Shown: one piece after another, positions 3,701 through 30,257 of the stretch
How the letters are laid out: each line of letters starts with the position of its first letter
Numbering within the stretch: position 1 is the stretch's first letter
NCBI RefSeq assembly: GCF_005771565.1
Contig: NZ_VAWA01000003.1
Location: 124,001-188,000, forward strand
Direction: 5' to 3'
DNA: 64,000 bases
Source of the DNA: Nesterenkonia sphaerica
Lineage (GTDB): Bacteria; Actinomycetota; Actinomycetes; Actinomycetales; Micrococcaceae
Position numbers and translations under genes: made by a program
Notes under the pieces: generated by a model
Told to the model about the DNA's origin: nothing
What the model saw: the letters and a program-made list of their open reading frames with translations, nothing else
Databases searched by the model: none

Positions 3701-4049
3701 GCCCACCACCCGACCAGGCGCGCGGCACGACAGAAAAATTTATCGACTTGTAATGTGCCGTGACGGCACGGGACATAGCTGCTCAGAATTTTAGGCAGTG
3801 CTGCCCAGAGATCACGCGGTTCGTGGGCCATGAGTCATCGCTGCATCCGCACATCGCCAAAACTCCTGACCCCCCGAAATGCGGATGGAATCCGACTCAA
3901 TCAGTTTGTAAAACCTTGGTAAATCCTTAGCGTAGGGGTAGATGTTCCCTGAACGCGGTCGTAGCATTGTCAACAACCGCAAGGTTGCACCGGCATGTTC
4001 ACGCTAATTCCAGACGACACCACTGATGAAGAAACTGAGGTACCAACTG
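3701..4049 (+). promoter_or_regulatory. Intergenic region with presumed promoter of the ehu operon
   Basis: About 350 bases without a gene. It is A/T-richer than its surroundings near 3731-3755 and 3895-3945. It holds an inverted repeat GTGCCGT-G-ACGGCAC at 3755-3769 and a smaller one GGCAG-TG-CTGCC at 3794-3805. Two overlapping promoter candidates lie near the downstream end: TTGTAA (3906-3911) with TAGCGT (3928-3933), or TTGGTA (3916-3921) with TAGATG (3939-3944). I cannot decide between them. The palindrome at 3755 could be an operator or the end of the recR transcript; no T-run follows it. Confidence 0.35.
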
Positions 4050-5024
4050 ATGAGCTTCACATCTTCCACACTGCGCGCCGGAGCCCTCTCCGCTGCTGCG
4101 CTGCTCGTTCTGACCGCCTGCGGTGACAACGGCGACGACGCCGCCGAAGACCCGGACGAGGCAGATGGCGCAACCGAAGAGAACGGCGACGCCGCGGACA
4201 CTGAAGACGGTGCCGAAGACGACGCCACCGATGCCGAGGACGACGCGGCTGATGCCAGCGGTGAGACGCTGACCATCTCACTGTTCGGGGAAGAGCCCTA
4301 CTCCTGGATTGACTCAGAGACCGGCGAACCCACCGGCGCGACGATCGCTGTGGCGGAGGAAATCTTCGTTGAGCGACTGGGATACGACGTCGAGTTCGAA
4401 GAAGAGCCCAACTGGGACAACCTGATCCCCGGATTGGGCGCGGGACACTGGGATGTGGTCTCTGCCGGGATGTCCATCAATTCTGACCGCTGCGCCGAGG
4501 CGGCCTTCGGTGAGCCGGAACTGGTGTACACCACAGCATTCCTCGTAGAGGAGGGCAACCCCGCAGGGGTACAGAATTTTGAGGATCTGGTGGATGCGGA
4601 CCTGGACGTCGTCGCGCTCAGCGGCGCCGTGGAATCCGGTTGGATGGATGAAGTCGGAGTGGACCATGACACGGTCGACAGTGCCGCTGACGGAATCGAT
4701 TTCGTCGACGGTGGCCGGGCCGATGTCTTCGCCCTGACCGCGATCTCGCTGGAGGCGATGGCCGGAGACGCTGACGGTCTCGAGGTCACCGACTCCTTCG
4801 CCCACGAACTCTCCGTCGGCGCCCACGCTTTCCGCCTGGACGATCAGGATCTGATCGACGAGTTCAACGAGCAGCTGGCTGAGCTGATGGACTCCGGAGA
4901 GTACCTCGAGCTGGTCAGCGAGTTCGGCTTCACGGAGGATGAGATGCCCCCGAGCGGTCTGACGGCACAGGAACTGTGCGAGGAGGATCCGCAGGAGCTC
5001 ACCGAGCAGTATCTCGACGACTGA
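4050..5024 (+). CDS. ehuB: Ectoine/hydroxyectoine-type substrate-binding lipoprotein (EhuB-like)
   Basis: Extracellular family-3 solute-binding protein for an amino-acid-type ABC importer. The start at 4050 is preceded by GAGG nine bases upstream and gives a normal lipoprotein signal peptide with lipobox LTAC (Cys24); an ATG at 4026 in the same frame has no ribosome binding site. Residues 25-72 form a linker in which about half the residues are Asp or Glu and none are Lys or Arg. The mature domain resembles EhuB: IPGLGAGHWDVVSAGMSI, then DRCAEAAFGEPELVYTTAFLV, and the C-terminal GFTEDEMPPSGLTAQELC. It heads an operon with two permeases and an ATPase in the order of known ehuBCDA operons. A polar amino acid as substrate cannot be excluded. 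Confidence 0.75.
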   Translation: MSFTSSTLRAGALSAAALLVLTACGDNGDDAAEDPDEADGATEENGDAADTEDGAEDDATDAEDDAADASGETLTISLFGEEPYSWIDSETGEPTGATIAVAEEIFVERLGYDVEFEEEPNWDNLIPGLGAGHWDVVSAGMSINSDRCAEAAFGEPELVYTTAFLVEEGNPAGVQNFEDLVDADLDVVALSGAVESGWMDEVGVDHDTVDSAADGIDFVDGGRADVFALTAISLEAMAGDADGLEVTDSFAHELSVGAHAFRLDDQDLIDEFNEQLAELMDSGEYLELVSEFGFTEDEMPPSGLTAQELCEEDPQELTEQYLDD

Positions 5025-5039
5025 ACCCTCAGCCGTCCT

Positions 5040-5079
5040 GAGGTTGCGGCCGGCGCCGGTGCGGCCCGGCCGCAACCTC
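5040..5079 (+). repeat. Strong stem-loop between ehuB and ehuC
   Basis: A perfect 13-bp inverted repeat, GAGGTTGCGGCCG (5040-5052) and CGGCCGCAACCTC (5067-5079), with a 14-base loop, begins 15 bases after the ehuB stop. No T-run follows, so it is more likely an mRNA-stabilising or partial-attenuation hairpin than a full terminator. That fits the usual excess of binding protein over membrane subunits. Confidence 0.7.
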
Positions 5080-5111
5080 TGTCACTCCACCGCTGACTGA
5101 GGGGACAACCT

Positions 5112-5963
5112 ATGGAATTCTTCGAAGACTGGCCGCAGTACTTCGAAGTGGTGATCAACTGGTCCGACCGACTGATGGCTGGACTGTGGACCACCATCCA
5201 GCTCACCCTGTTCGGCGGACTGCTGGCATTTGTGGTCGCTGTGACCCTGGGACTGCTCGCTGGCAGCCCGCACCGATGGATGCGCATACCGGCTCGCATC
5301 CTCATCGAGTTCTTCCGCGGCATCTCCCTGGTCGTGCTGCTGTTCTGGCTGATGTTCGTCCTGCCGCAGATCTGGATGCGAAACCCGGATCTGCCGTTCC
5401 GGGACCTGGTCTACAACACCTTCCTGCTGGGCGTAATTGCCTTGGGCGTCAACTACGGGGCATACGGCGCGGAGGCGGTGCGCGCCTCCTTGACCACTGT
5501 GCCTTCCGGGCAGTGGGAGGCGACCACCGCGCTGTCGATGTCCTGGCCCCATAAGATGCGCCGGATCATCTTCCCGCAGGCGTGGGCGCTGATGCTGCCG
5601 TCCTTGGCGAACCTGTGGGTGCACCTGCTCAAGGGCAGCGCCATCGCCTACATCATGCCTTTTGTCAGTGACTTCACTGCGGAGCTGAACCAGCTGCGCA
5701 GGCCCACCGACATCTGGTTCTCTCACGCCTTCATCGGCCTGATCGTCTACTTCCTCCTTGCACTGATCCTCACCATCTTCATGCAAGCTCTCGAGGCCCG
5801 AGCCAAGCACAAACTCGGACGCGGTCCGTCTCTGAAGGAGATCCTCTCCCCCGCACCGAAGGCCGTCGTCCCGGAAGGTTCGGGCGTGAAGATCGCTGAC
5901 TCCGAGCAAGAAGCTGCCGGTGCGGGTTCCGCTCCGGCGAAGCCGGAAGGGGGTGTGCGATGA
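5112..5963 (+). CDS. ehuC: ABC transporter permease (EhuC-like)
   Basis: Membrane subunit of the presumed ectoine importer, HisM/GlnP type. It has an early hydrophobic segment TTIQLTLFGGLLAFVVAVTL, further segments around VVLLFWLMFVLP and FLLGVIALGVNYGAYGAEAVR, and the EAA loop EATTALSMSWPHKMRRIIFPQA that contacts the ATPase. At 283 aa it is longer than many such permeases because of a soluble C-terminal tail of about 55 residues (KHKLGRGPSLKEI onward). The stop overlaps the next permease start by four bases, implying translational coupling. The ATG has GAGGGGAC just upstream. Confidence 0.8.
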   Translation: MEFFEDWPQYFEVVINWSDRLMAGLWTTIQLTLFGGLLAFVVAVTLGLLAGSPHRWMRIPARILIEFFRGISLVVLLFWLMFVLPQIWMRNPDLPFRDLVYNTFLLGVIALGVNYGAYGAEAVRASLTTVPSGQWEATTALSMSWPHKMRRIIFPQAWALMLPSLANLWVHLLKGSAIAYIMPFVSDFTAELNQLRRPTDIWFSHAFIGLIVYFLLALILTIFMQALEARAKHKLGRGPSLKEILSPAPKAVVPEGSGVKIADSEQEAAGAGSAPAKPEGGVR

Positions 5964-6682
5964 TCTTGAACCTCACTCAGGCTGCTGAGATTGACGATCC
6001 CTCGATGGTCGACGAGGAGGAGGTGCGCCGCAGCCCCTTCTGGGACTGGGACTTCGCCTTCGATGCCTTCCCGGACATCTTCATGGCCTTCTTGGAAGTC
6101 ACGCTCCTGGTCACCGTGATCGGCTCCCTGCTGGCAGCAGTGCTCGGGCTGGTCATCGCAATTCTCATTATGGTGCTGCCCAAACCTTTGGCGTGGCTGG
6201 TCCGCTGGGTGGCCAACTTCATTCGGATGACCCCCATCGTGGTGCAGCTGATCTTCGTCTTCTGGGCTTTCGTATGGATGGATGCACTGACTATCGGCAT
6301 CATTGTCTTCGGCGTCCACTATGCGACCTACATGTCGGAGGTCTACCGCGCTGGCATCGAGTCAGTTCCCCGGGGTCAGTGGGAGGCCACCACTGCGCTG
6401 TCGATGTCGGCGGGACGCACCTGGCGCAAAGTCGTCATCCCTCAGGCGCTGCGCTCCACCGTGCCCTCGCTGGGCAACTACGCCATTTCCATGTTCAAGG
6501 ACACACCATTTCTCCTGGTCATCGGCGTCGCAGAGATGGTCACTGTCGCCGGAGAGAGGGGTGCCCCGGTCTTCCGCACCACCGAGGTGTACACCATCGC
6601 CGGACTGCTCTTCCTCGCTGCCAGCTACCCCACCGCCGTTCTCATCAACCGATTGGAGAAGCGTCTTGCCTACGCCCACTGA
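5960..6682 (+). CDS. ehuD: ABC transporter permease (EhuD-like)
   Basis: Second membrane subunit of the importer, 240 aa. A short acidic N-terminus is followed by transmembrane segments, including LEVTLLVTVIGSLLAAVLGL and IVVQLIFVFWAFVW. The EAA loop reads EATTALSMSAGRTWRKVVIPQA, nearly parallel to that of the preceding permease, consistent with a heterodimer. It shares the family fold with EhuC but is clearly distinct in sequence. Its 3' end overlaps the ATPase gene if the TTG start of the latter is correct. Confidence 0.8.
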   Translation: MILNLTQAAEIDDPSMVDEEEVRRSPFWDWDFAFDAFPDIFMAFLEVTLLVTVIGSLLAAVLGLVIAILIMVLPKPLAWLVRWVANFIRMTPIVVQLIFVFWAFVWMDALTIGIIVFGVHYATYMSEVYRAGIESVPRGQWEATTALSMSAGRTWRKVVIPQALRSTVPSLGNYAISMFKDTPFLLVIGVAEMVTVAGERGAPVFRTTEVYTIAGLLFLAASYPTAVLINRLEKRLAYAH

Positions 6683-7493
6683 TGCTGCCGGCTCCGAGCC
6701 CGGAGCTGCGGCGTCGTCCGCACCCACTCCAGTGATCGAGTTTGTCGACGTCGAGAAGAGCTTTGGGAACAACGTGGTCCTGAAGGACCTGAACTTCCAG
6801 GTGGCCCGCGGTGAGCGGGTGACGCTGATCGGCCCCTCCGGCTCAGGCAAGACCACGATCCTTCGGCTGGTGATGACCCTGGAGGAGCTCACCGGCGGGT
6901 ACATCTACATCGACGGCCAACCGCTGACTCACCACAAGCGGGACGGCAAACGAGTGCCGGTGTCGAAGAAGGAACAGAAGCGACTGCGCACCCGGATCGG
7001 CATGGTTTTTCAGCAGTTCAACCTTTTTCCCAATATGACGGTACTGGAAAACATCATTGAGGCGCCGATTCATGTGCTGGGTCGGAGCAAGAAGGATGCG
7101 ATCGCCAAGGCGCATTCACTGCTGGAACAGGTGGGACTTCCGGAGAAGGCTGATTCCCACCCCAGCAGCCTTTCCGGAGGACAGCAGCAGCGCGTGGCGA
7201 TCGCCCGCGCCCTGGCCATGGACCCGGAGATCCTGCTGCTGGACGAGGTCACCTCCGCCCTCGATCCGGAGGTGGTCGACGATGTGCTCAACATCCTCCG
7301 TGAAGTGGCAGACACCACCAATGTGACCATGCTCATCGTCACCCATGAGATGGGCTTCGCCCGGGATGTCAGCCACAAAGTGATGATGTTCGACGGCGGC
7401 CACGTGGTGGAGGAGGGTCCCCCGGATAAGATCTTCACCAACCCTGAGCAGGAGCGGACCCGGAAGTTTCTCTCCGCGGTGCTCGGACACTGA
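6666..7493 (+). CDS. ehuA: ABC transporter ATP-binding protein (EhuA-like)
   Basis: Cytoplasmic ATPase that powers the importer. It contains Walker A GPSGSGKTT, Q-loop region MVFQQFNLFPNMTV, signature LSGGQQQRVAIARAL, Walker B ILLLDEVTSALDPE and the switch histidine in VTHEMGF, all typical of the GlnQ/HisP group. The frame is open far upstream, but the upstream part is antisense-like noise. A TTG at 6666 has GGAG seven bases before it and gives 275 aa; a GTG at 6732 is the alternative and would remove a 22-residue Ala-rich N-terminal extension. The TTG start overlaps ehuD by 17 bases. Confidence 0.85.
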   Translation: MPTPTDAAGSEPGAAASSAPTPVIEFVDVEKSFGNNVVLKDLNFQVARGERVTLIGPSGSGKTTILRLVMTLEELTGGYIYIDGQPLTHHKRDGKRVPVSKKEQKRLRTRIGMVFQQFNLFPNMTVLENIIEAPIHVLGRSKKDAIAKAHSLLEQVGLPEKADSHPSSLSGGQQQRVAIARALAMDPEILLLDEVTSALDPEVVDDVLNILREVADTTNVTMLIVTHEMGFARDVSHKVMMFDGGHVVEEGPPDKIFTNPEQERTRKFLSAVLGH

Positions 7494-22758: not shown

Positions 22759-23424
22759 TCACGTCTGGTCCTGCTGGGCGCTGCTGGCCGTCTCCTCAAC
22801 CCGCTCGACGAACCAGCTGGCCAGCGTAGCGGTCACGGTTCCCAGCAGCCCGAGCCCGCAGACCATCAGCACCACGGCGATACTGCGACCGAGCCCAGTG
22901 ATCGGATAGAAATCACCGTATCCCACGGTGGTGATGGTCCCCGTGGACCACCACAGCGCTTCGCTGAAGGTGGTGATATTGGCTCCCGGGGCGTTCTGCT
23001 CGGCGTCGAGCATCGCCAGGGATGCCATGACCACAAGGAGCATGGAGGTGAACGCCACGTAGAGGATGACCTTTCCCCGCAGCGCAGCGCCGGCCGAACG
23101 CTGCAGCACCGCCAGTGCCGTGGCGAGTCTCAGCAGCCGCAGCGGCCGCAGCGCCGGCAGCAGCACGATCGCCAGCTCATGCAGGTGAGTGAGGAACCAT
23201 CTGCGAGTGTGCGGGACCAGGATCAAGGAGACCACGTAGTCCACCGCGAACAGCACCCAAATCGCATTCATCACCCAGAAGGGCCAAGAGACCTGGGTTT
23301 CGCGCAGGTCCCCAATGACGACGTAAGCGTAGACCCCGAGGAACCCCAGAGCGACGAACACCATGGGCCACTCCGTGAGCTGGGTCCACCGCAGATAAGC
23401 GGAGCGGTTGTTCCATAGCCTCAT
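22759..23424 (-). CDS. Voltage-gated-type potassium channel protein
   Basis: 221 aa membrane protein with the selectivity filter TTVGYGD at residues 165-171. The preceding pore helix is EALWWSTGTI, and an S4-like arginine helix LRPLRLLRLATALAVL lies at about 92-107, so a partial voltage-sensor module is present. I chose the ATG at 23424 over a longer frame because a -10-like TACGGT (23431-23436) lies six bases upstream, consistent with a leaderless transcript, and because the upstream residues are not hydrophobic. No TrkA/RCK domain is fused at the C-terminus. Confidence 0.88.
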   Translation of the reverse strand: MRLWNNRSAYLRWTQLTEWPMVFVALGFLGVYAYVVIGDLRETQVSWPFWVMNAIWVLFAVDYVVSLILVPHTRRWFLTHLHELAIVLLPALRPLRLLRLATALAVLQRSAGAALRGKVILYVAFTSMLLVVMASLAMLDAEQNAPGANITTFSEALWWSTGTITTVGYGDFYPITGLGRSIAVVLMVCGLGLLGTVTATLASWFVERVEETASSAQQDQT

Positions 23425-23443
23425 GGACCCACCGTATCCGCCG

Positions 23444-24757
23444 CTATCGCAGCCGCACCGGCTCTTGGTCTTCTGCCTCGTAAGGGTCGAGTGCACTGCA
23501 CACTCCGGTCTCAGGCAGCGCCAATTCCAGCGGCGAGGCGTCCTCACCCGCCAGGTGGGCGGCGATAGAGCGGACTTGGCCGTAACCGGTGGCCAGCAGG
23601 AACGTCGGCGCTCGCCCGTAGGACTTCATCCCGGCAAGGAAGAAACCGTCTTCCGGGTGGGCGAGCACCTCCACCCCATGCGCCGGGACAGTTCCGCAGG
23701 TGTGGAACTCCGGGTCAATGAGCGGGGCCAGCCCGGAAGGCGCCTCCACCCCCGGATCCAGGTCGAGCCGGAGTTCTCGGAGCATGGCCAGGTCAGGGCG
23801 GAACCCCGTGGCAGCCGCTACAGCACTGACCCGAACTGAACGTCCATCTGTGAACTCAACGGTGACTCCTTCCGGCGGCGTAGCCTGCAGCCGTTGCACG
23901 GAGGCCGCTGTCATCACCCGAATGTGCCCGGCCGCGACCAGTCGGCGCAGCCGCTGCCCGAGCGCGCCACGGGCAGGCAGCTCATCGCGCTCACCGCCGC
24001 CGAAGCTGCGCTCCAGGTTCGTACCGCGCACTGCCCACAGGATCTCGGTGGCCGAATCGGTACGCTTCAGAGCCGCGAGGTTCAGCAGGGTGTTGGTGGC
24101 GCTGTGGCCGGCACCCACGACGAGTATGCGCCTGCCGGTGACCCGTGAACGGGCTGCGCCGAGCACATCCGGCAAGGGTCCGAGGAGGTGCCGCACCACC
24201 GAGGCATCCTGCTCACCAAGAGCGGGAAGACCCGCAGGGCCCATAGGGTTCGGCTGGGCCCAGGTCCCGGAAGCGTCTATCACCGCGCGGGCACGCAAGT
24301 CGGCGGTGGCGCCACCGGCCTCCACCCGGACGGTGTAGGGCGCACCCTGGCGGGCGGCGTGGTGGGTCTTGTCCCGGTCGCCGCGGCTGATCCCAGTGAC
24401 CCGCGTCCGATATCTGATCCGGTCCTTCAGCTGCGCAGTCTGAGCCAGGGGCCTCAGGTACTCCTCGACCAGCTCTGTCCCCGTGGGCAAGCCCGTGGGT
24501 CTCGGTGGGCTCCAACCCTCGGCGCTGAGCAGCCGAACGCAGGCGGCATCGAGGTTGAATCTCCACGGCGAAAACAGCTTGATGTGGCCCCACGAGGCGA
24601 TCGCGGCGCCGGCGTGGCCCCCAGCTTCCACCACTTGCGGCTCGAGACCCCGCTCCATCAAGTGGGCAGCCGCCGCCAGACCCACCGGCCCGGCCCCTAT
24701 GACGACGACGGGGGGCATCTGGGCAGCTTGCGCGCTGTACTTCACCACGGCATCCAT
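23444..24757 (-). CDS. Arsenic-associated flavoprotein monooxygenase-like (ArsO-type)
   Basis: 437 aa FAD/NAD(P)-dependent oxidoreductase. It has the FAD motif GAGPVGLAAAAHLMERGLEP near residue 21, the signature SWGHIKLFSPWRFNLD, a second dinucleotide motif ILVVGAGHSATNTLLNL, and a C-terminus EDGFFLAGMKSYGRAPTFLL. I recognise this subgroup from actinobacterial arsenic-resistance clusters next to arsR and acr3. Here no other ars gene is adjacent. The ATG at 24757 has no ribosome binding site and sits at the edge of an ArsR-like operator, so leaderless or short-leader initiation under arsenic-type repression is likely. The exact reaction is unproven. Confidence 0.8.
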   Translation of the reverse strand: MDAVVKYSAQAAQMPPVVVIGAGPVGLAAAAHLMERGLEPQVVEAGGHAGAAIASWGHIKLFSPWRFNLDAACVRLLSAEGWSPPRPTGLPTGTELVEEYLRPLAQTAQLKDRIRYRTRVTGISRGDRDKTHHAARQGAPYTVRVEAGGATADLRARAVIDASGTWAQPNPMGPAGLPALGEQDASVVRHLLGPLPDVLGAARSRVTGRRILVVGAGHSATNTLLNLAALKRTDSATEILWAVRGTNLERSFGGGERDELPARGALGQRLRRLVAAGHIRVMTAASVQRLQATPPEGVTVEFTDGRSVRVSAVAAATGFRPDLAMLRELRLDLDPGVEAPSGLAPLIDPEFHTCGTVPAHGVEVLAHPEDGFFLAGMKSYGRAPTFLLATGYGQVRSIAAHLAGEDASPLELALPETGVCSALDPYEAEDQEPVRLR

Positions 24758-24859: not shown

Positions 24860-25381
24860 TCAACGGAGCTCGGCGCGGGAGAAGGTCAAGGTCTCCCCCC
24901 GTGCACCGTCCATCCAGATTGAGTGACACGCCTGGGCGAACTCCTCCAGGCCTTGGACGACCGTGCCGAAGACATTGCCAGGGACCCAGCCTTGATCGCC
25001 GTTGATCAGCAGGTTGTTCCGGCCATAGAAGACTGCGAGGTCCGTAATGCGCTTGGCGACGACGGGCTGCTCCGCGCGTACTGGAACATCTGCGCTGTAC
25101 CCATAGGCCGGGTTGCCCAGGTCATCAGAGTCAAAAGCGAAGTAGCAGAGGTCACCCGGAATCGGAGTGACCGTGGTGTTCTCCTTGCCCGGCTCCTGGG
25201 CGGCAAAGGCGTCCACCAGGTGGTAGACCTCATTGCGGGCGTATTTGCCGTGGTACACCTGTCCCGACTGTGGCAGCGCGTCCCACACCGCCGCGCAGGT
25301 CCGAGGCGCTTCGTCGTCCAGCAGCTTGGCCAGACAGCTCACCCCCCGTTGATCCAGCGTGACGGTGATGTACCGGGCCAC
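24860..25381 (-). CDS. DUF3830 family protein
   Basis: 173 aa, small soluble protein. The opening ARYITVTLDQRGVSCLAKLLDD followed by EAPRTCAAVWDALPQ matches DUF3830, a cyclophilin-like barrel family with no established activity. Other features are YHGKYARNEVYHLVDAF and a central GDLCYFAFDSDD. GTG start two bases after the amidase stop, so it is the third gene of a dehydrogenase-amidase-DUF3830 operon. Members of this family often sit near amidase and racemase-family genes, as here, which suggests a role in the same catabolic route, perhaps in substrate binding or hydrolysis. Confidence 0.82.
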   Translation of the reverse strand: MARYITVTLDQRGVSCLAKLLDDEAPRTCAAVWDALPQSGQVYHGKYARNEVYHLVDAFAAQEPGKENTTVTPIPGDLCYFAFDSDDLGNPAYGYSADVPVRAEQPVVAKRITDLAVFYGRNNLLINGDQGWVPGNVFGTVVQGLEEFAQACHSIWMDGARGETLTFSRAELR

Positions 25382-25383
25382 GT

Positions 25384-26805
25384 TCAGCCCGCCCCCTGCG
25401 CCGCTGGGACCGTGACGGGGCGGACAAACTGTTCCCCTGCGGCCTGTTCATAGGCGCGGGAGGCACGCAGTACCAACCTGTCCTGGGTCCGGGCAGCCAC
25501 GAACTGCAGCCCCACGGGCAGACCATCAGAAGCCACTCCGCACGGGACCGACGCCGCCGGCTGCTGGGTCATATTGAACGGGTAGGTGTAGGGGGTCCAG
25601 GAGGTCCACAGATCTGACTTCCAGCCTTCCGGAGCCTGGCGGTTCCGGTCGAAGGCGGTGATCGGCATGGTGGGAGTGACCAGCAGGTCGTACTTCTGGT
25701 GAAATGCTCCCATGAGCACACCCAACTCCATGCGCACCGCGGTGGCGTCGAGGTAGTCCTGGGCCGAGGCGTCGGCGTAGCGCTCAATCCCCGCCCGCAA
25801 GCCCGGGTCAACTTTGGCCAGCGCTTGCGGCCCATAGGCAGCGACCACCTTCGCAGCTCCGGTGAACCACAGCACGTGGAACGGCTCGACCGGATCAGCG
25901 AACCCGGGGTCGACCTCCTCGACAATGGCGCCCTGGTCAGCGAGTACGTCCACGGCTTCGCGGACCAGCCGCTCCACCTCAGGATCGTTCTCACCGAATC
26001 CCAGGGTCGGCGAGAACGCAATGCGCAGGCCCTCCACTCCCTGGTCGAGACCGTCGGTGAACGAGGTGGTGGGTGTAGGCAGGGCGGCCCAGTCGCGTGA
26101 GTCGAACCCTGTGATGATGTCCATCAGCATCGCCGCGTCTGTCACGGTGCGGGTCATCGGGCCAGCATGAGCCAGCGTGCCGAAAGGCGAAGCGGGGAAC
26201 ATCGGCACCAATCCGAACGTCGGCTTCAGTGCCACCGTGCCGGTGAAGGCGGCGGGAATACGAACCGAGCCACCAGCGTCGGTCCCCACCGACCACGGTC
26301 CCATTCCGGCGCCTACAGCCGCCGAGGAGCCTCCCGAGGATCCGCCCGCGGTCATGGCGGGGTCCCAGGGGTTGCCGGTGGCTCCGAAACGCTCGCTGTC
26401 AGTGGTGCCTTTCCAGGCGAATTCCGGAGTGGAGACTTTGCCCAGCAGCACCGCCCCGGTATCTCGGAGGCGTGCCACGCAGGGAGCGTCGGCGTCCCAC
26501 GGGCCGGCGTCGTCGATCAGGGTTGAGCCGCGCAGGGTGGGCCACCCGGACGTGATGAACATGTCTTTGATGGAGGTCGGCACACCGTCCCCGGGGCCCA
26601 GAGTCTGACCTGACTTCCACCGTGCTGCAGAGGCTTCCGCGGAATCGAGCGCGGACTCGCGGTCCACCAGCACAAATGCGTTGAGCTCGGCGTTCTGAGC
26701 CTCGATCCTGCTCAGTGCCGCCTCCGTGGCGTCCACCGGAGTGAAGCTGCCTGCGGCGTATCCCTCCAGCAGCTCAGCTGCGCTGAATTCAGCCAGGTCG
26801 GTCAT
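25384..26805 (-). CDS. Amidase (amidase-signature family)
   Basis: 473 aa hydrolase with the complete Ser-cisSer-Lys triad: Lys80 in GVPTSIKDMF, cis-Ser156 in TAGGSSGGSSAAVGAG and nucleophile Ser180 in GTDAGGSVRIPAAFTG. It cleaves an amide to acid and ammonia; the substrate cannot be read from the sequence. This is not a GatA, since gatB/gatC are absent and the C-terminal part differs. Its ATG overlaps the stop of the upstream dehydrogenase gene by four bases, and DUF3830 follows directly. Expression is presumably set by the shared divergent operator near 27.83 kb. Confidence 0.92.
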   Translation of the reverse strand: MTDLAEFSAAELLEGYAAGSFTPVDATEAALSRIEAQNAELNAFVLVDRESALDSAEASAARWKSGQTLGPGDGVPTSIKDMFITSGWPTLRGSTLIDDAGPWDADAPCVARLRDTGAVLLGKVSTPEFAWKGTTDSERFGATGNPWDPAMTAGGSSGGSSAAVGAGMGPWSVGTDAGGSVRIPAAFTGTVALKPTFGLVPMFPASPFGTLAHAGPMTRTVTDAAMLMDIITGFDSRDWAALPTPTTSFTDGLDQGVEGLRIAFSPTLGFGENDPEVERLVREAVDVLADQGAIVEEVDPGFADPVEPFHVLWFTGAAKVVAAYGPQALAKVDPGLRAGIERYADASAQDYLDATAVRMELGVLMGAFHQKYDLLVTPTMPITAFDRNRQAPEGWKSDLWTSWTPYTYPFNMTQQPAASVPCGVASDGLPVGLQFVAARTQDRLVLRASRAYEQAAGEQFVRPVTVPAAQGAG

Positions 26806-27797
26806 GATGCGCTCCTCTTTCCTGGGACGTAGCCCTTGTCTTTGTCCACCACGTTCAACAAGTCTTTTCCATCCAGCCAGCGCTGGGCATTCTCGATGAA
26901 CAGCTCAGCCAAGGAGTCCCGCCAGCCGTGGACATCACCTGACATATGGGGCGCGATCATCACGTTCTCCAGTTCCCACAGCTCGGAATCCGCAGGCAGC
27001 GGTTCCTCCTCAAACACGTCAAGCGAGGCGAACCCCAACGGCCCGTGGCGCAGAGCACTGACCAGTGCTTGCTGATCCACCGAGGCGCCACGTCCGATAT
27101 TGACCAGGTGTGCGCCGGGCTTCACTGCAGCCAGCGTCTCGGCGCCGATCAGCCCGGCGGTCGCTGGGGTCAGCGGCGCGGCGTTGACAATAATGTCGTA
27201 GTCGGCGACGTGCTGGGCCATGGATTCCGAGGCGATCACGGTGCCAAAATCCGAGTCAGCATCCCGCGCTGTGCGCCCGGCTCCGGTGACCTTGACACCC
27301 ACGGCGGTGAGCAGCCTGGCAATCTCGCGCCCGATCGCACCGGTGCCGATCACCAACGCGGCAGACCCTTGGACCCGTGCGGTCTCCCGGTGGGCCCAGG
27401 TCTTGGTGGTCTTGAGCTGGAAGTTCCCGTGGAAATCCTTGGCGTGCGCCAGCACGGCACCGAGGACCCATTCTGCGATGGGCCGATCGAAAACGCCCTG
27501 AGAGTTGGTGACTGTCACCTCGGAGTCGCGCAGCTGGTCAAAGAGCAGAGTGTCGACCCCGGCCGCAGCGACGTGAATCCACTTCAGCCGATCTGCTTGC
27601 GGCCACGCCTGTTCCAGCGCTCCGGAGAAGAAGTCCCAGAGAAAGAGCGCATCGGCACCGGCTATGTCTTCAGGCAAATTCTCCGCATCGGTCAGCCGGA
27701 TCTCTGCCCGGCCGGAGAGCTGCTCAAGTCCAGGGGGCACGGCGTACGGAGCCTCCGGATCTGAGGGGCGCAGTATTGTGATGCGGGACTCTGACAT
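26802..27797 (-). CDS. D-isomer-specific 2-hydroxyacid dehydrogenase
   Basis: 331 aa NAD(P)-dependent oxidoreductase. The cofactor motif is GTGAIG at 151-156; catalytic residues Arg236 (NIGRGASVD), Glu265 (DVFEEEPLP) and His284 (APHMSGDVHGW) are all in place. It interconverts a 2-oxoacid and a D-2-hydroxyacid. There is no ACT or regulatory domain, so it is not serine-pathway SerA. It is the first gene of the minus-strand half of the divergent cluster, with its promoter inside the shared operator region. Confidence 0.9.
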   Translation of the reverse strand: MSESRITILRPSDPEAPYAVPPGLEQLSGRAEIRLTDAENLPEDIAGADALFLWDFFSGALEQAWPQADRLKWIHVAAAGVDTLLFDQLRDSEVTVTNSQGVFDRPIAEWVLGAVLAHAKDFHGNFQLKTTKTWAHRETARVQGSAALVIGTGAIGREIARLLTAVGVKVTGAGRTARDADSDFGTVIASESMAQHVADYDIIVNAAPLTPATAGLIGAETLAAVKPGAHLVNIGRGASVDQQALVSALRHGPLGFASLDVFEEEPLPADSELWELENVMIAPHMSGDVHGWRDSLAELFIENAQRWLDGKDLLNVVDKDKGYVPGKRSAS

Positions 27798-27804
27798 GGG
27801 TGCT

Positions 27805-27839
27805 ACATTAGAAACCTCATCTGCAGATTGTCAACAATC
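27805..27839. promoter_or_regulatory. Divergent promoter with GntR-type operator
   Basis: GATTGT-CA-ACAATC at 27826-27839 is an inverted repeat of 6-bp arms. It contains the minus-strand -35 TTGACA (plus 27829-27834), which pairs with -10 TAATGT (plus 27805-27810) across 18 bp for the dehydrogenase operon. The same core recurs before the GntR gene at 29534. TTGTNNNACAA-like sites are typical of FadR-subfamily regulators. Confidence 0.7.
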
Positions 27840-27877
27840 CTGCAGTGCCTGCTGTCGCCGTCGCGCAAGGGGCTCCT

Positions 27878-28768
27878 ATGACACCGGCACACCCTCCAGA
27901 CCCGCCCCCACTCGCTACTCCCATTGGTGCGGTGGTCCCCTATGACATGGCTCTGGATCGAGAGCTGCGGCAGTTCTCCCGGGACAGATTCGGTTTCGAA
28001 CAACTCGACCTGCTCTTCGCCCGCACCCCGTTTCAACCACTGACCGTCACCGTCGAACAGGCCCGAGCCATCTCCCGTCCCGAGGTGATCCGCGCTGCGG
28101 TGCGCTCAGTCTCCGCCACGGGCCCTGCTGGGTACATCTACGCCTGCACCTCAGGCAGCTTCGTCCGGGGTGTGGTGGGCGAACGGCGCCTCACTCACCT
28201 GATCTCCGAAACCGGACGCAAGGCCTCAGCGAAAGCGATGCGCACCCTGGAGGCTGCCCTCGCCTATCCCGAGCAGTGGCCTGATCCCGCACCGGAGGTG
28301 TCCCCCACGGCGGTGACCACCGCGGGCTCCCTGCTTGAAGCTCTTCATGCACTGGGGGTCACCTCGGTTGCCGCCGCCACCCCCTATGACCCCTCGATTG
28401 CCGCGCTGTTCCAGCAGTTCTTCGCCGAGGCGGGGATCGACCTGGTGCACACCGCACACCTGGGACTGGCCGGACGCATCTGGACGGTGCCCTGGGATAC
28501 CACTCGTGACCTGGTCCGGAATGCAGATGCGCCCGATGCTGAGGCCGTGCTGATCTCCTGCACCAATCTGCCGACCTACGAGGTGCTCGATCAGCTCGAA
28601 CAGGACCTCGGAAAACCGGTTCTCTCAGCGAACCAGACCACCATCTGGGCTGCTTTGCGCCGAGCGGAGCGGGAGTATCTGGGCCCCGGCGCGGCACTGC
28701 GCGACTGCTTCACCCCCGCTCCGACGGCCTCGCCGGAGCATACCCGGGAAGGAGCAGCGCCAGCATGA
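27878..28768 (+). CDS. Asp/Glu racemase-superfamily protein, maleate isomerase-like (two catalytic Cys)
   Basis: 296 aa cytosolic enzyme of the Asp/Glu racemase, hydantoin racemase and maleate cis-trans isomerase superfamily. Both catalytic-type cysteines are present: Cys90 in YACTSGSF and Cys228 in LISCTNLPTYEVLDQL, followed by LGKPVLSANQTTIWA, which is very maleate-isomerase-like. It may isomerise, racemise or decarboxylate a small dicarboxylate. The ATG at 27878 has AAGGGG five bases upstream; a GTG at 27845 lies closer to the operator and is less likely. The stop overlaps the next gene by four bases. Confidence 0.82.
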   Translation: MTPAHPPDPPPLATPIGAVVPYDMALDRELRQFSRDRFGFEQLDLLFARTPFQPLTVTVEQARAISRPEVIRAAVRSVSATGPAGYIYACTSGSFVRGVVGERRLTHLISETGRKASAKAMRTLEAALAYPEQWPDPAPEVSPTAVTTAGSLLEALHALGVTSVAAATPYDPSIAALFQQFFAEAGIDLVHTAHLGLAGRIWTVPWDTTRDLVRNADAPDAEAVLISCTNLPTYEVLDQLEQDLGKPVLSANQTTIWAALRRAEREYLGPGAALRDCFTPAPTASPEHTREGAAPA

Positions 28769-29532
28769 ACGCTCGTGTCACCGTCGGCATTCTCTACCCC
28801 GGCCATGCGGCCGAGGATGACTTCTCCACGTTGGATTCCACCTTTCAGGACGCTGAGGCCCCGCCGGTGAGGCTGCCGGTGGCCATCACCACCATCGGAG
28901 TGGATGAACACACACCACAGGCGCTGCGGGAAACGGGCTCCCACCCGCGCCTGCTGGCCGGAGCCCAACGTCTGCTGACACAGCAGCGTGTGGATTCCCT
29001 CATGTGGGCCTGCACCTCCGGAAGCTTCGTCTTCGGATGGCAAGGAGCCCATTCCCAAGTGCGGCGACTGACTGAGGCCACCGGCGTGCCCGTCTCCTCG
29101 ACCTCCCTCGGCTTTGTCCGCGCCCTCACCAGGCTGGGGTTGCGCCGGGTGGCGGTGGCGGCGTCATACCCGGCAGAACTTGCTGAGCACTTCGTGGGAT
29201 TCCTGCGTGCCGGCGGCGTCGAACCGGTTGCTTTTGAAGCACAGGGCGTCTTCACCGCCCAGGCGGTGAGTCAGCTGCCGCGTGCGGAGCTGTTCGCAAT
29301 GATTCGCCACGTTGACGTCCCGGCGGCCCAGGCGGTGGTGGTCCCGGATACGGCCATGCACTCGCTGACCTGGGTCGAGGAGATGGAGCAGGCACTGGGC
29401 AAACCGGTGCTGACGGCAAACCAAGTCACCATTTGGGAGGGGATGCGCATCGCAGGAGTCGCCCAGCCCCAGCTGCCAGCACTGGGCTCACTGCTGAACC
29501 CGGAGCGCCTGATCTCTTCCTCGCCTGACTAG
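28765..29532 (+). CDS. Asp/Glu racemase-superfamily protein lacking the second catalytic Cys
   Basis: 255 aa paralogue of the preceding gene. The first Cys is kept (Cys83 in WACTSGSF) and the C-terminal block LGKPVLTANQVTIWEGMR is conserved, but the segment equivalent to SCTNLPT reads PDTAMHS, so the second cysteine is replaced by Asp195. A one-cysteine member resembles arylmalonate decarboxylase-type chemistry in principle, although that enzyme keeps the other cysteine. Overlaps the upstream gene at ATGA and lies 35 bases before the GntR gene. Substrate unknown; possibly a heteromeric partner of the two-cysteine protein. Confidence 0.8.
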   Translation: MNARVTVGILYPGHAAEDDFSTLDSTFQDAEAPPVRLPVAITTIGVDEHTPQALRETGSHPRLLAGAQRLLTQQRVDSLMWACTSGSFVFGWQGAHSQVRRLTEATGVPVSSTSLGFVRALTRLGLRRVAVAASYPAELAEHFVGFLRAGGVEPVAFEAQGVFTAQAVSQLPRAELFAMIRHVDVPAAQAVVVPDTAMHSLTWVEEMEQALGKPVLTANQVTIWEGMRIAGVAQPQLPALGSLLNPERLISSSPD

Positions 29533-29553
29533 AATGGATTGTCAACAATCCAT
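29530..29553 (+). promoter_or_regulatory. Second copy of the GntR-type operator, before the regulator gene
   Basis: ATGGATTGT-CA-ACAATCCAT (29534-29553) has perfect 9-bp arms and the same core as the divergent operator. A -10-like TAGAAT (29530-29535) touches its left arm, so binding would block initiation. This suggests that the GntR protein controls itself as well as both catabolic arms. Confidence 0.7.
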
Positions 29554-29567
29554 GGATCGGAGCATCA

Positions 29568-30257
29568 ATGTCCAGCCCCCAGTCGTTCAAGCGGGTTAAC
29601 CGCGAGTCCACCGCCGGGCTCATCACCCGTCAGCTGCGTGAGGCGATTATGTACGGCCGGCTCAGCCCAGGAGCCCAGCTCTCGGAGGCGAACCTAGCTG
29701 CGGAGTTCGGGGTCAGTCGCGGCCCCCTGCGTGAAGCCACACAGCGCTTGGTCCAAGAGGGCCTGGTCCGCGCAGAGCCCAACCGCGGTTTGTTCGTCAA
29801 GGAACTCGATGAGCACGAGATCCGTGACCTCTACGCCGCCCGCATTGCGATCGAGACAGCCGCCGGACGCACGATCATCCGGCAGCACCGGCAGACGGCC
29901 ATTGCACAACTGCGGGACGCCTATCAGACGATGCAGCAGGCCGCCGAAGACGGCACATTGGACCGACTCTCTGACGCTGATCTGCACTTTCATGAGGTCC
30001 TGGTCGACAGCGCTGGTAGTGCGCGGCTGCAACGGATGCACCAGACACTGATGGTGGAGACGCGGATGTGCCTGACTGCGCTTCAGGGCACGTATCGGGA
30101 CCCGGAGGACCAGGTGGCAGAACACCGCAGGATTGCCGAGGCGATCGCCGCAGGCGATTCGGCCGGACTGGTTGACGCGATCGAAGAGCACATGCAGGAG
30201 GCATTGGACCGGCTGGTGCCGGGCACCCGAAGCGCCGGCGCCTCGGCGCAAGTGTGA
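29568..30257 (+). CDS. GntR-family regulator, FadR subfamily
   Basis: 229 aa. The N-terminal winged helix (about residues 10-75) includes AGLITRQLREAIMYGRLSPG and EFGVSRGPLREATQRLVQEGLV. The C-terminal all-helical FCD domain (about 85-215) senses a small carboxylate in relatives. ATG start with GGAG five bases upstream. Two identical operator cores, one in the divergent promoter and one 15 bases before this gene, make it the likely local regulator. The ligand is unknown, probably a pathway intermediate. Confidence 0.9.
   Translation: MSSPQSFKRVNRESTAGLITRQLREAIMYGRLSPGAQLSEANLAAEFGVSRGPLREATQRLVQEGLVRAEPNRGLFVKELDEHEIRDLYAARIAIETAAGRTIIRQHRQTAIAQLRDAYQTMQQAAEDGTLDRLSDADLHFHEVLVDSAGSARLQRMHQTLMVETRMCLTALQGTYRDPEDQVAEHRRIAEAIAAGDSAGLVDAIEEHMQEALDRLVPGTRSAGASAQV

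Follow-up and report, generated by a model that had tools for sequence, protein, structure and literature searches.

A dispersed GntR/FCD regulon of Nesterenkonia that includes DUF3830 and most likely serves ectoine-type solutes

Introduction

Many bacteria employ ectoines as stress solutes, and these compounds are in industrial use. According to the accessible part of a recent study, their breakdown has been validated experimentally in only a small number of Proteobacteria (PMC13188858). The closest described gene set is the proteobacterial cluster enuR-ueh/ehu-eutABCDE-asnC-ssd-atf, or doeABXCD (PMC5924519), of which the EutABC genes are tied to 5-hydroxyectoine, with precise activities stated as unknown in the accessible part of PMC8739950. 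Here we analyze a stretch of 64,000 nucleotides from the actinobacterium Nesterenkonia sphaerica (contig NZ_VAWA01000003.1, positions 124,001 to 188,000; hereafter the window), in which two divergent gene arms encode a DUF3830 protein, an amidase and a D-2-hydroxyacid dehydrogenase (DH) on one side, and two EutA-like proteins (rac1 and rac2) and a GntR-family regulator (gntR) on the other. These genes belong to a real and conserved system that is larger than a first-pass annotation of the sequence had proposed, and that is most likely a GntR/FCD regulon for ectoine-type solutes.

Actinomycetota have been proposed to consume ectoine by way of putative EutD/EutB-based clusters, which are called provisional (PMC13188858, 2026). 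As described in the accessible part of that paper, these Gram-positive clusters were located by EutD/EutB search, use variable carriers (major facilitator superfamily, given as 'MSF', BCCT, UehPQM or Ehu) and include a putative amidohydrolase named abgB; the main text, to the extent that it is accessible, contains zero matches for DUF, amidase, GntR or hydroxyacid. N. sphaerica would escape a EutD search of this type because its genome has no EutD match. DUF3830 is represented by the structure 3KOP (Arthrobacter sp. FB24, cyclophilin-like fold), which was deposited as an uncharacterized protein and released in 2009 without an assigned function; in the accessible part of PMC3123238, a study of packing, it illustrates a fold and is given no function. 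In the accessible part of a paper on cold stress in Mycobacterium smegmatis, ectoine figures in synthesis and transport only. The word DUF3830 was not found in a full-text literature search, and among the 8 of 10 papers listed by a search on ectoine with GntR, FCD and amidase none treats such a regulon by title; most subscription papers lie outside these searches, so that prior mention elsewhere is possible.

Compared with the proteobacterial cluster, as laid out in the accessible part of PMC5924519, the N. sphaerica genes share an Ehu-type importer, EutA-like enzymes, a GntR-superfamily regulator, a class-III aminotransferase (Atf/DoeD) and an aldehyde dehydrogenase like succinate-semialdehyde dehydrogenase (SSADH; Ssd/DoeC). 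They differ in being dispersed rather than gathered in one operon, and in adding DUF3830, the amidase, two D-2-hydroxyacid dehydrogenases and a second EutA-like protein. The N. sphaerica regulator is of the FCD class and is without the aminotransferase-like C-terminal domain of EnuR (MocR/GabR). Unlike the proteobacterial cluster, the genome has no match to EutD/DoeA (TIGR02993) or EutE/DoeB (TIGR02994) at E<=1e-3, the latter holding for all 30 genomes of the genus, and no EutC-like protein (TIGR02992) at a limit of 1e-40, below which weaker relatives were unlisted; none of 98 relatives exceeds the EutC cut-off.

Results

The 14-mer GATTGTCAACAATC has just three perfect copies in the 2.79 Mb N. 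sphaerica genome. Two are in the window, in the divergent gap and before gntR (Table 1), and the third is on the same contig at a distance of 53 kb (L067:6747; our own numbering is L for loci and G for genomes), between a divergent SSADH-like aldehyde dehydrogenase gene and a class-III aminotransferase gene. By enzyme class, their products are candidates for the diaminobutyrate (DABA) aminotransferase and semialdehyde dehydrogenase steps. Including imperfect copies, operator-like sites are recognizable by sequence at both arms, gntR, the aldehyde dehydrogenase/aminotransferase pair, an Ehu-like importer operon, a flavin adenine dinucleotide (FAD)/Fe-S D-2-hydroxyacid dehydrogenase (two mismatches, directly upstream, L071:9163) and an alanine-type aminotransferase (one mismatch, directly upstream, L069). 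One further one-mismatch site (C12) looked intragenic.

The first-pass annotation had described a self-contained cluster with one shared promoter region, a matching operator and no dedicated importer. The operator in the divergent gap stands, but there are two perfect operators in the cluster, and since the second is placed before gntR, this gene is probably driven from its own autoregulated promoter. By eye, operator 1 appears to overlap a TTGACA-type -35 element of the left arm; a sigma-70 scan of the divergent promoter region found 0 promoters. The cluster is not self-contained, given the third perfect site and the near-sites at other genes, and an importer is encoded within the same window: genes in the order EhuB-C-D-A form one operon at 4026-7493, ~17 kb to the left of the cluster and preceded by a variant site. 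We call it Ehu-like because the scanned subunits score under the curated cut-offs.

The same operator marks the same genes across the genus. In a search of 30 Nesterenkonia genomes allowing up to one mismatch, 61 perfect sites were found in 27 genomes, and a script recount placed all 61 at genes of the regulon: 27 adjoin the aldehyde dehydrogenase and/or class-III aminotransferase, 15 fall between DH and gntR and 12 between DH and rac1, 6 precede gntR alone and 1 precedes the alanine-type aminotransferase. The reversed pattern, searched identically, gave 1 match. Classification of one-mismatch sites covered those inside loci already read and 19 that were fetched; among the fetched sites, 6 precede the FAD dehydrogenase and 10 the alanine-type aminotransferase, all in relatives and additional to the N. 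sphaerica sites, 2 precede the ectoine synthase gene ectC and 1 (L338) is unassigned. In 80 named loci, ATTGTnnACAAT is present in every scorable rac1/DH divergent gap (66/66), and it was seen 158 times against 0.2 expected from base shuffling of all 80.

Some sites fall outside this pattern. A one-mismatch operator-like site of G012, a genome without DUF3830, has no regulon gene beside it (L172:1503, G012:C1:716245); by-eye reading of the sequence gives its neighbors as a polysaccharide-deacetylase-like gene pair and an isochorismatase-like gene. Kribbella loci (L258, L262, L263, L278, L281, L283, L288, L291) carry five to eleven TTGTnnACAA sites per 20 kb, several of them within the coding sequences of EutD, DH and amidase and, in L258, L278 and L288, also of DUF3830; most of the other loci have such sites outside genes.

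Gene order is conserved alongside the operator. The amidase gene stands immediately before DUF3830 on the same strand in 71/80 named loci, and DH, amidase and DUF3830 are consecutive in 64/80. Together with the 66/66 gaps, these counts strongly support a catabolic cluster that is conserved, shares one GntR operator and has DUF3830 as an integral member. Neighborhood and operator thus recur across relatives, and the lack of conservation that would have spoken against the first-pass annotation is not seen. PF12903, the DUF3830 family, occurs in 43 of 396 genomes of the phylum, in a long form like that of the window and in a shorter, weaker-scoring form. Among 17 fetched long-form loci, rac1, rac2 and the amidase are each present in 16, DH in 15 and a gntR homologue in 12; the single locus that lacks rac1, rac2 and the amidase is a contig of 5 kb. 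A search of plasmids with DUF3830 (tblastn) gave no match. The short divergent form (L118:8933-9343, L119:8765, L120:8582) had no rac or amidase partners in the stretches read, and adjoins genes that we named by eye as allantoate-amidohydrolase-like M20 proteins, a PuuD-like membrane protein and a nucleoside-type ABC transporter. This setting suggests a purine or ureide role for the short subfamily.

The distribution of the genes resolves the system into parts. Of the 30 genus genomes, 23 have both DUF3830 and rac2 and the other 7 have neither. In 9 of the 23 (L043-L050, L052) DUF3830, rac1 and rac2 are set apart from the other genes, with TTGTnnACAA between DUF3830 and rac2 in 8, of which 7 are GATTGTnnACAATC or one base off. 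Five of the seven genomes without the module (G001, G002, G004, G013, G019) retain gntR, DH, amidase, aminotransferase and aldehyde dehydrogenase together with the operator. Outside the genus, an amidase ortholog (E up to 1e-140) is present in 5/5 DUF3830-positive relatives versus 1/63 DUF3830-negative ones. Seven relatives are EutD-positive and DUF3830-negative; four of them (L308, L309, L312, L313) have gntR, the aldehyde dehydrogenase, the FAD dehydrogenase and the same motif, with DH in three (L308, L309, L312) and the class-III aminotransferase in two, and have no amidase, rac1, rac2 or DUF3830 within the stretch read. These patterns describe a common part that is joined to a EutD/M20 part, to a DUF3830/rac/amidase part, or to both. 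Two genomes have lesions in the set: the G008 amidase is split over two frames (L040:9230-10634) and the G049 DUF3830 gene has one in-frame stop (L028), reflecting either assembly errors or decay.

Several lines of evidence connect the regulon to ectoine. Of the 62 named loci that span 18 kb or more, 30 contain a EutD/DoeA-like gene, in 24 cases along with an M20 deacylase and a MocR-like class-I aminotransferase, and 23 contain a ProP-like carrier. Two loci (L111, L112) have a BCCT carrier with the motif at its start (checked with a model in L111 only). Ehu subunits over the curated cut-offs are encoded beside DUF3830 in relatives (EhuB in L102, EhuC and EhuA in L104), and the G038 EhuB also passes (267.5 bits), with the motif upstream and rac1/rac2 nearby. 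EutA is the best NCBIfam model for both rac1 (83.7 bits) and rac2 (107.8 bits), each below its cut-off of 318. Every one of the 26 genus genomes that are at least 90% complete has ectoine synthase, N. sphaerica among them. Taken together, these sequence signals make a substrate of the ectoine type highly probable. The first-pass annotation had suggested a generic amide or dicarboxylate, and the added evidence points instead to ectoine or 5-hydroxyectoine. In two genomes (G014, G029; L319:3490, L320:3198) the motif lies between ectB and ectC, directly before ectoine synthase, which suggests cross-talk of ectoine synthesis with breakdown.

The N. sphaerica DUF3830 protein has 66-68% identity to 3KOP (E 1.2e-77), and many of its residues, including numerous charged ones, are conserved in at least 97% of 81 sequences. 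Its predicted model (mean predicted local distance difference test score 80.6, residues 90-109 poor) matches 3KOP first, followed by two Pictet-Spenglerases, KslB and McbB (E 3e-6 to 5e-4, TM 0.50-0.63 by query length, root-mean-square deviation about 4-6), with ordinary cyclophilins ranking after these at weaker E-values. Pictet-Spenglerase chemistry passes through C=N bonds in rings. If the KslB/McbB match is real, the DUF3830 fold can be catalytic. In the amidase, K80, S156 and S180, which we take to be the Lys-Ser-Ser triad, are conserved in at least 97% of 75 sequences. Its PDB relatives include aryl acylamidase, biuret hydrolase and 6-aminohexanoate-cyclic-dimer hydrolase; because the last of these is a cyclic-amide hydrolase, ring opening by the amidase is possible.

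rac1 and rac2 share the overall family and cysteine motifs of the arylmalonate decarboxylase/maleate isomerase/EutA superfamily, and differ from it in being two dissimilar paralogs that form a fixed pair. Both active-site cysteines of rac1 (C90 and C228, counted from ATG 27878) are conserved in at least 97% of 76 sequences. rac2 has the first cysteine only (C83), with D195-T196 at the second site, in at least 97% of 55 sequences. Arylmalonate decarboxylase has a single, C-terminal cysteine, and neither protein reaches its model cut-off (NF052327; 58.6 and 78.1 bits for rac1 and rac2 against 225). Maleate isomerases are weaker relatives than arylmalonate decarboxylase and EutA.

The features of the window are collected in Table 1. 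The six cluster genes, their strands and their families are as the first-pass annotation had them, with Pfam and NCBIfam matches far above chance, and so is their tight coupling (gaps of 2 and 35 bases, both overlaps 4 bases).

Table 1. Predicted genes and operator sites of the regulon in the window
Feature	Position	Strand	Basis or context
DUF3830 protein (PF12903), 173 aa, GTG start	24860..25381	-	Pfam 3.1e-65, 218.9 bits vs cut-off 26 (passes)
Amidase-signature amidase, PRK06169/NF004815 equivalog	25384..26805	-	709 bits vs cut-off 506; Pfam 8e-95
DH, NAD-binding D-2-hydroxyacid dehydrogenase family protein	26802..27797	-	Pfam 2-Hacid_dh_C 3.6e-47
Putative GntR operator 1, GATTGTCAACAATC	27826..27839	.	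Divergent gap between arms
rac1, EutA/arylmalonate decarboxylase superfamily	27845 (or ATG 27878)..28768	+	Amdase 7e-18; EutA TIGR02990 83.7 bits
rac2, second EutA-like protein	28765..29532	+	Pfam Amdase 1e-21; EutA TIGR02990 107.8 bits
Putative GntR operator 2, GATTGTCAACAATC	29537..29550	.	Between rac2 and gntR, directly before gntR
gntR, GntR-family regulator with FCD domain, 229 aa	29568..30257	+	Pfam FCD 1.8e-25, GntR 2.1e-19
Variant operator, CATTGTCAACAACC	3965..3978	.	Two mismatches; 47 bases before Ehu-like operon
EhuB-like substrate-binding protein	4026..5024	+	TIGR02995 best model, 143.2 bits, below cut-off 190.9
EhuC-like permease	5112..5963	+	TIGR03004 best model, 142.2 bits, below cut-off 196.95
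EhuD-like permease	5960..6682	+	TIGR03003 best model, 203.4 bits, below cut-off 205.2
EhuA-like ATPase, TTG start candidate 6666, stop 7493	6666..7493	+	59% identity to L104 EhuA (tblastn only)

Discussion

We propose that a GntR/FCD repressor and its predicted operator GATTGTnnACAATC control a dispersed regulon for the uptake and breakdown of ectoine and/or 5-hydroxyectoine, an assignment that we regard as probable. Imported ectoine would lift repression via a catabolic intermediate. Neither EutD nor EutE would take part in ring opening and removal of the acetyl group; for the deacylase, the amidase is the likeliest candidate. The class-III aminotransferase and aldehyde dehydrogenase, as counterparts of DoeD/Atf and DoeC/Ssd, would then yield aspartate or hydroxyaspartate, and the second aminotransferase and both D-2-hydroxyacid dehydrogenases would pass 2-oxo and 2-hydroxy acids onward. 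DUF3830, rac1 and rac2 would constitute a separable, co-inherited module that acts on the hydroxylated ring or an acyclic product and takes the place of EutABC. We assign the module to the hydroxylated compound because EutABC is tied to 5-hydroxyectoine and rac1 and rac2 are EutA-like; for the module by itself this role, probably on the hydroxylated ring, is plausible at somewhat below even chances. A bolder and distinctly tentative extension is that DUF3830 represents a new enzyme class, a cyclophilin-fold catalyst that, with the non-identical EutA-like pair, opens or dehydroxylates 5-hydroxyectoine. If true, hydroxyectoine would have a widespread actinobacterial route that does not depend on EutABCDE, and cyclophilin-fold catalysis would extend to cyclic amidines. 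As pure speculation, a D-malate route of alpha-transamination, DH, amidase, aminotransferase, aldehyde dehydrogenase and FAD D-2-hydroxyacid dehydrogenase would use all of the enzymes.

A number of observations fit this proposal poorly. The EutD cut-off is passed in 0 of 98 relatives, and the EutD-like genes of L042 and L309 score 416 and 415 against a family cut-off of 613. The five module-negative genus genomes that keep the core are also without a EutD match, leaving their ring-opening enzyme unexplained. A D-2-hydroxyacid dehydrogenase implies a 2-hydroxy substrate, which is no obvious ectoine intermediate, and its role is likewise unexplained. For the importer, the N. sphaerica EhuB, EhuC and EhuD all score under their curated cut-offs, and TTGTnnACAA precedes ehuB in only 7 of the 15 genus genomes looked at (present in the window and L212-L217; absent from L218, L219, L221-L224, L226 and L227). 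In the 18 kb read, Streptomyces-like loci with Ehu-type genes adjoining DUF3830 (L102, L104, L107, L108) show no gntR and no motif, and three of the EutD-positive, DUF3830-negative relatives (L314, L315, L316) lack the motif and hold few of the common genes. With a repressor site before ectC, synthesis would be linked to breakdown in an odd way, and no operator site was found in the ectB-ectC gap of N. sphaerica itself. Genomes of one genus are related rather than independent samples, so that the Fisher values for association overstate the evidence. Finally, we infer that the GntR protein binds and represses at the predicted sites.

The most closely related alternative keeps the regulon as it is and has DUF3830 itself open the ring of both ectoine and hydroxyectoine in place of EutD, with rac1 and rac2 adjusting stereochemistry only. 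The missing EutD and EutE matches in N. sphaerica, the many conserved charged residues of DUF3830 and the resemblance of its modelled fold to 3KOP and then to KslB and McbB all speak for this reading. Against this, five genus genomes keep the core with neither DUF3830 nor EutD, and EutD-like genes and DUF3830 are found together in 30/62 loci. Because of this co-occurrence the two are no simple alternatives. We have therefore dropped DUF3830 as a simple EutD replacement, and consider the wider idea unlikely. The amidase as a simple replacement for the M20 deacylase has been dropped as well, as M20 occurs with DUF3830-type loci that mostly hold the amidase too.

The remaining alternatives concern the substrate. 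The regulon might degrade another small cyclic or acylated amino acid that is moved by Ehu-like, ProP-like and BCCT carriers, with ectoine as a chemical neighbor only. Such a compound would account for the sub-threshold scores of the N. sphaerica Ehu subunits and of the EutD-like genes tested in relatives, and for the fact that no EutC-type enzyme was found (EutB was not searched); the pairing of DH with an amidase suggests a 2-hydroxy-amide intermediate. It is difficult to reconcile with the curated EhuA, EhuB and EhuC matches beside DUF3830, the EutD-like gene in 30/62 loci, the operator before ectC in two species and EutA as the best model for both rac1 and rac2, and we think it quite improbable. 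The generic amide or dicarboxylate cluster with maleate-isomerase-like steps of the first-pass annotation draws on the superfamily membership of rac1 and rac2 and on the amidase. The weaker relationship of the maleate isomerases, compared with arylmalonate decarboxylase and EutA, counts against it, and the linked transporters, aminotransferase and aldehyde dehydrogenase fit the ectoine scheme, as given in the accessible part of PMC5924519; we consider it highly improbable. Maleate- or nicotinate-type dicarboxylate breakdown in particular is rejected, EutA being the better model for rac1 and rac2.

On our preferred reading, salt-tolerant Nesterenkonia probably import and consume the salt-stress protectants ectoine and hydroxyectoine although the usual enzymes for ring opening and deacetylation are missing. 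The regulon offers a gene list, a regulator with its operator, and a natural presence/absence contrast (23 versus 7 Nesterenkonia genomes), and DUF3830 gains a defined set of partners and a first testable role.

Beside DUF3830, at 22759-24757 of the window, are a potassium-channel-like gene and a flavoprotein monooxygenase-like gene, with no TTGTnnACAA site near them. Both kinds of gene are also found near the cluster in L031 and L032, and only one of them in L034, L036 and L037.

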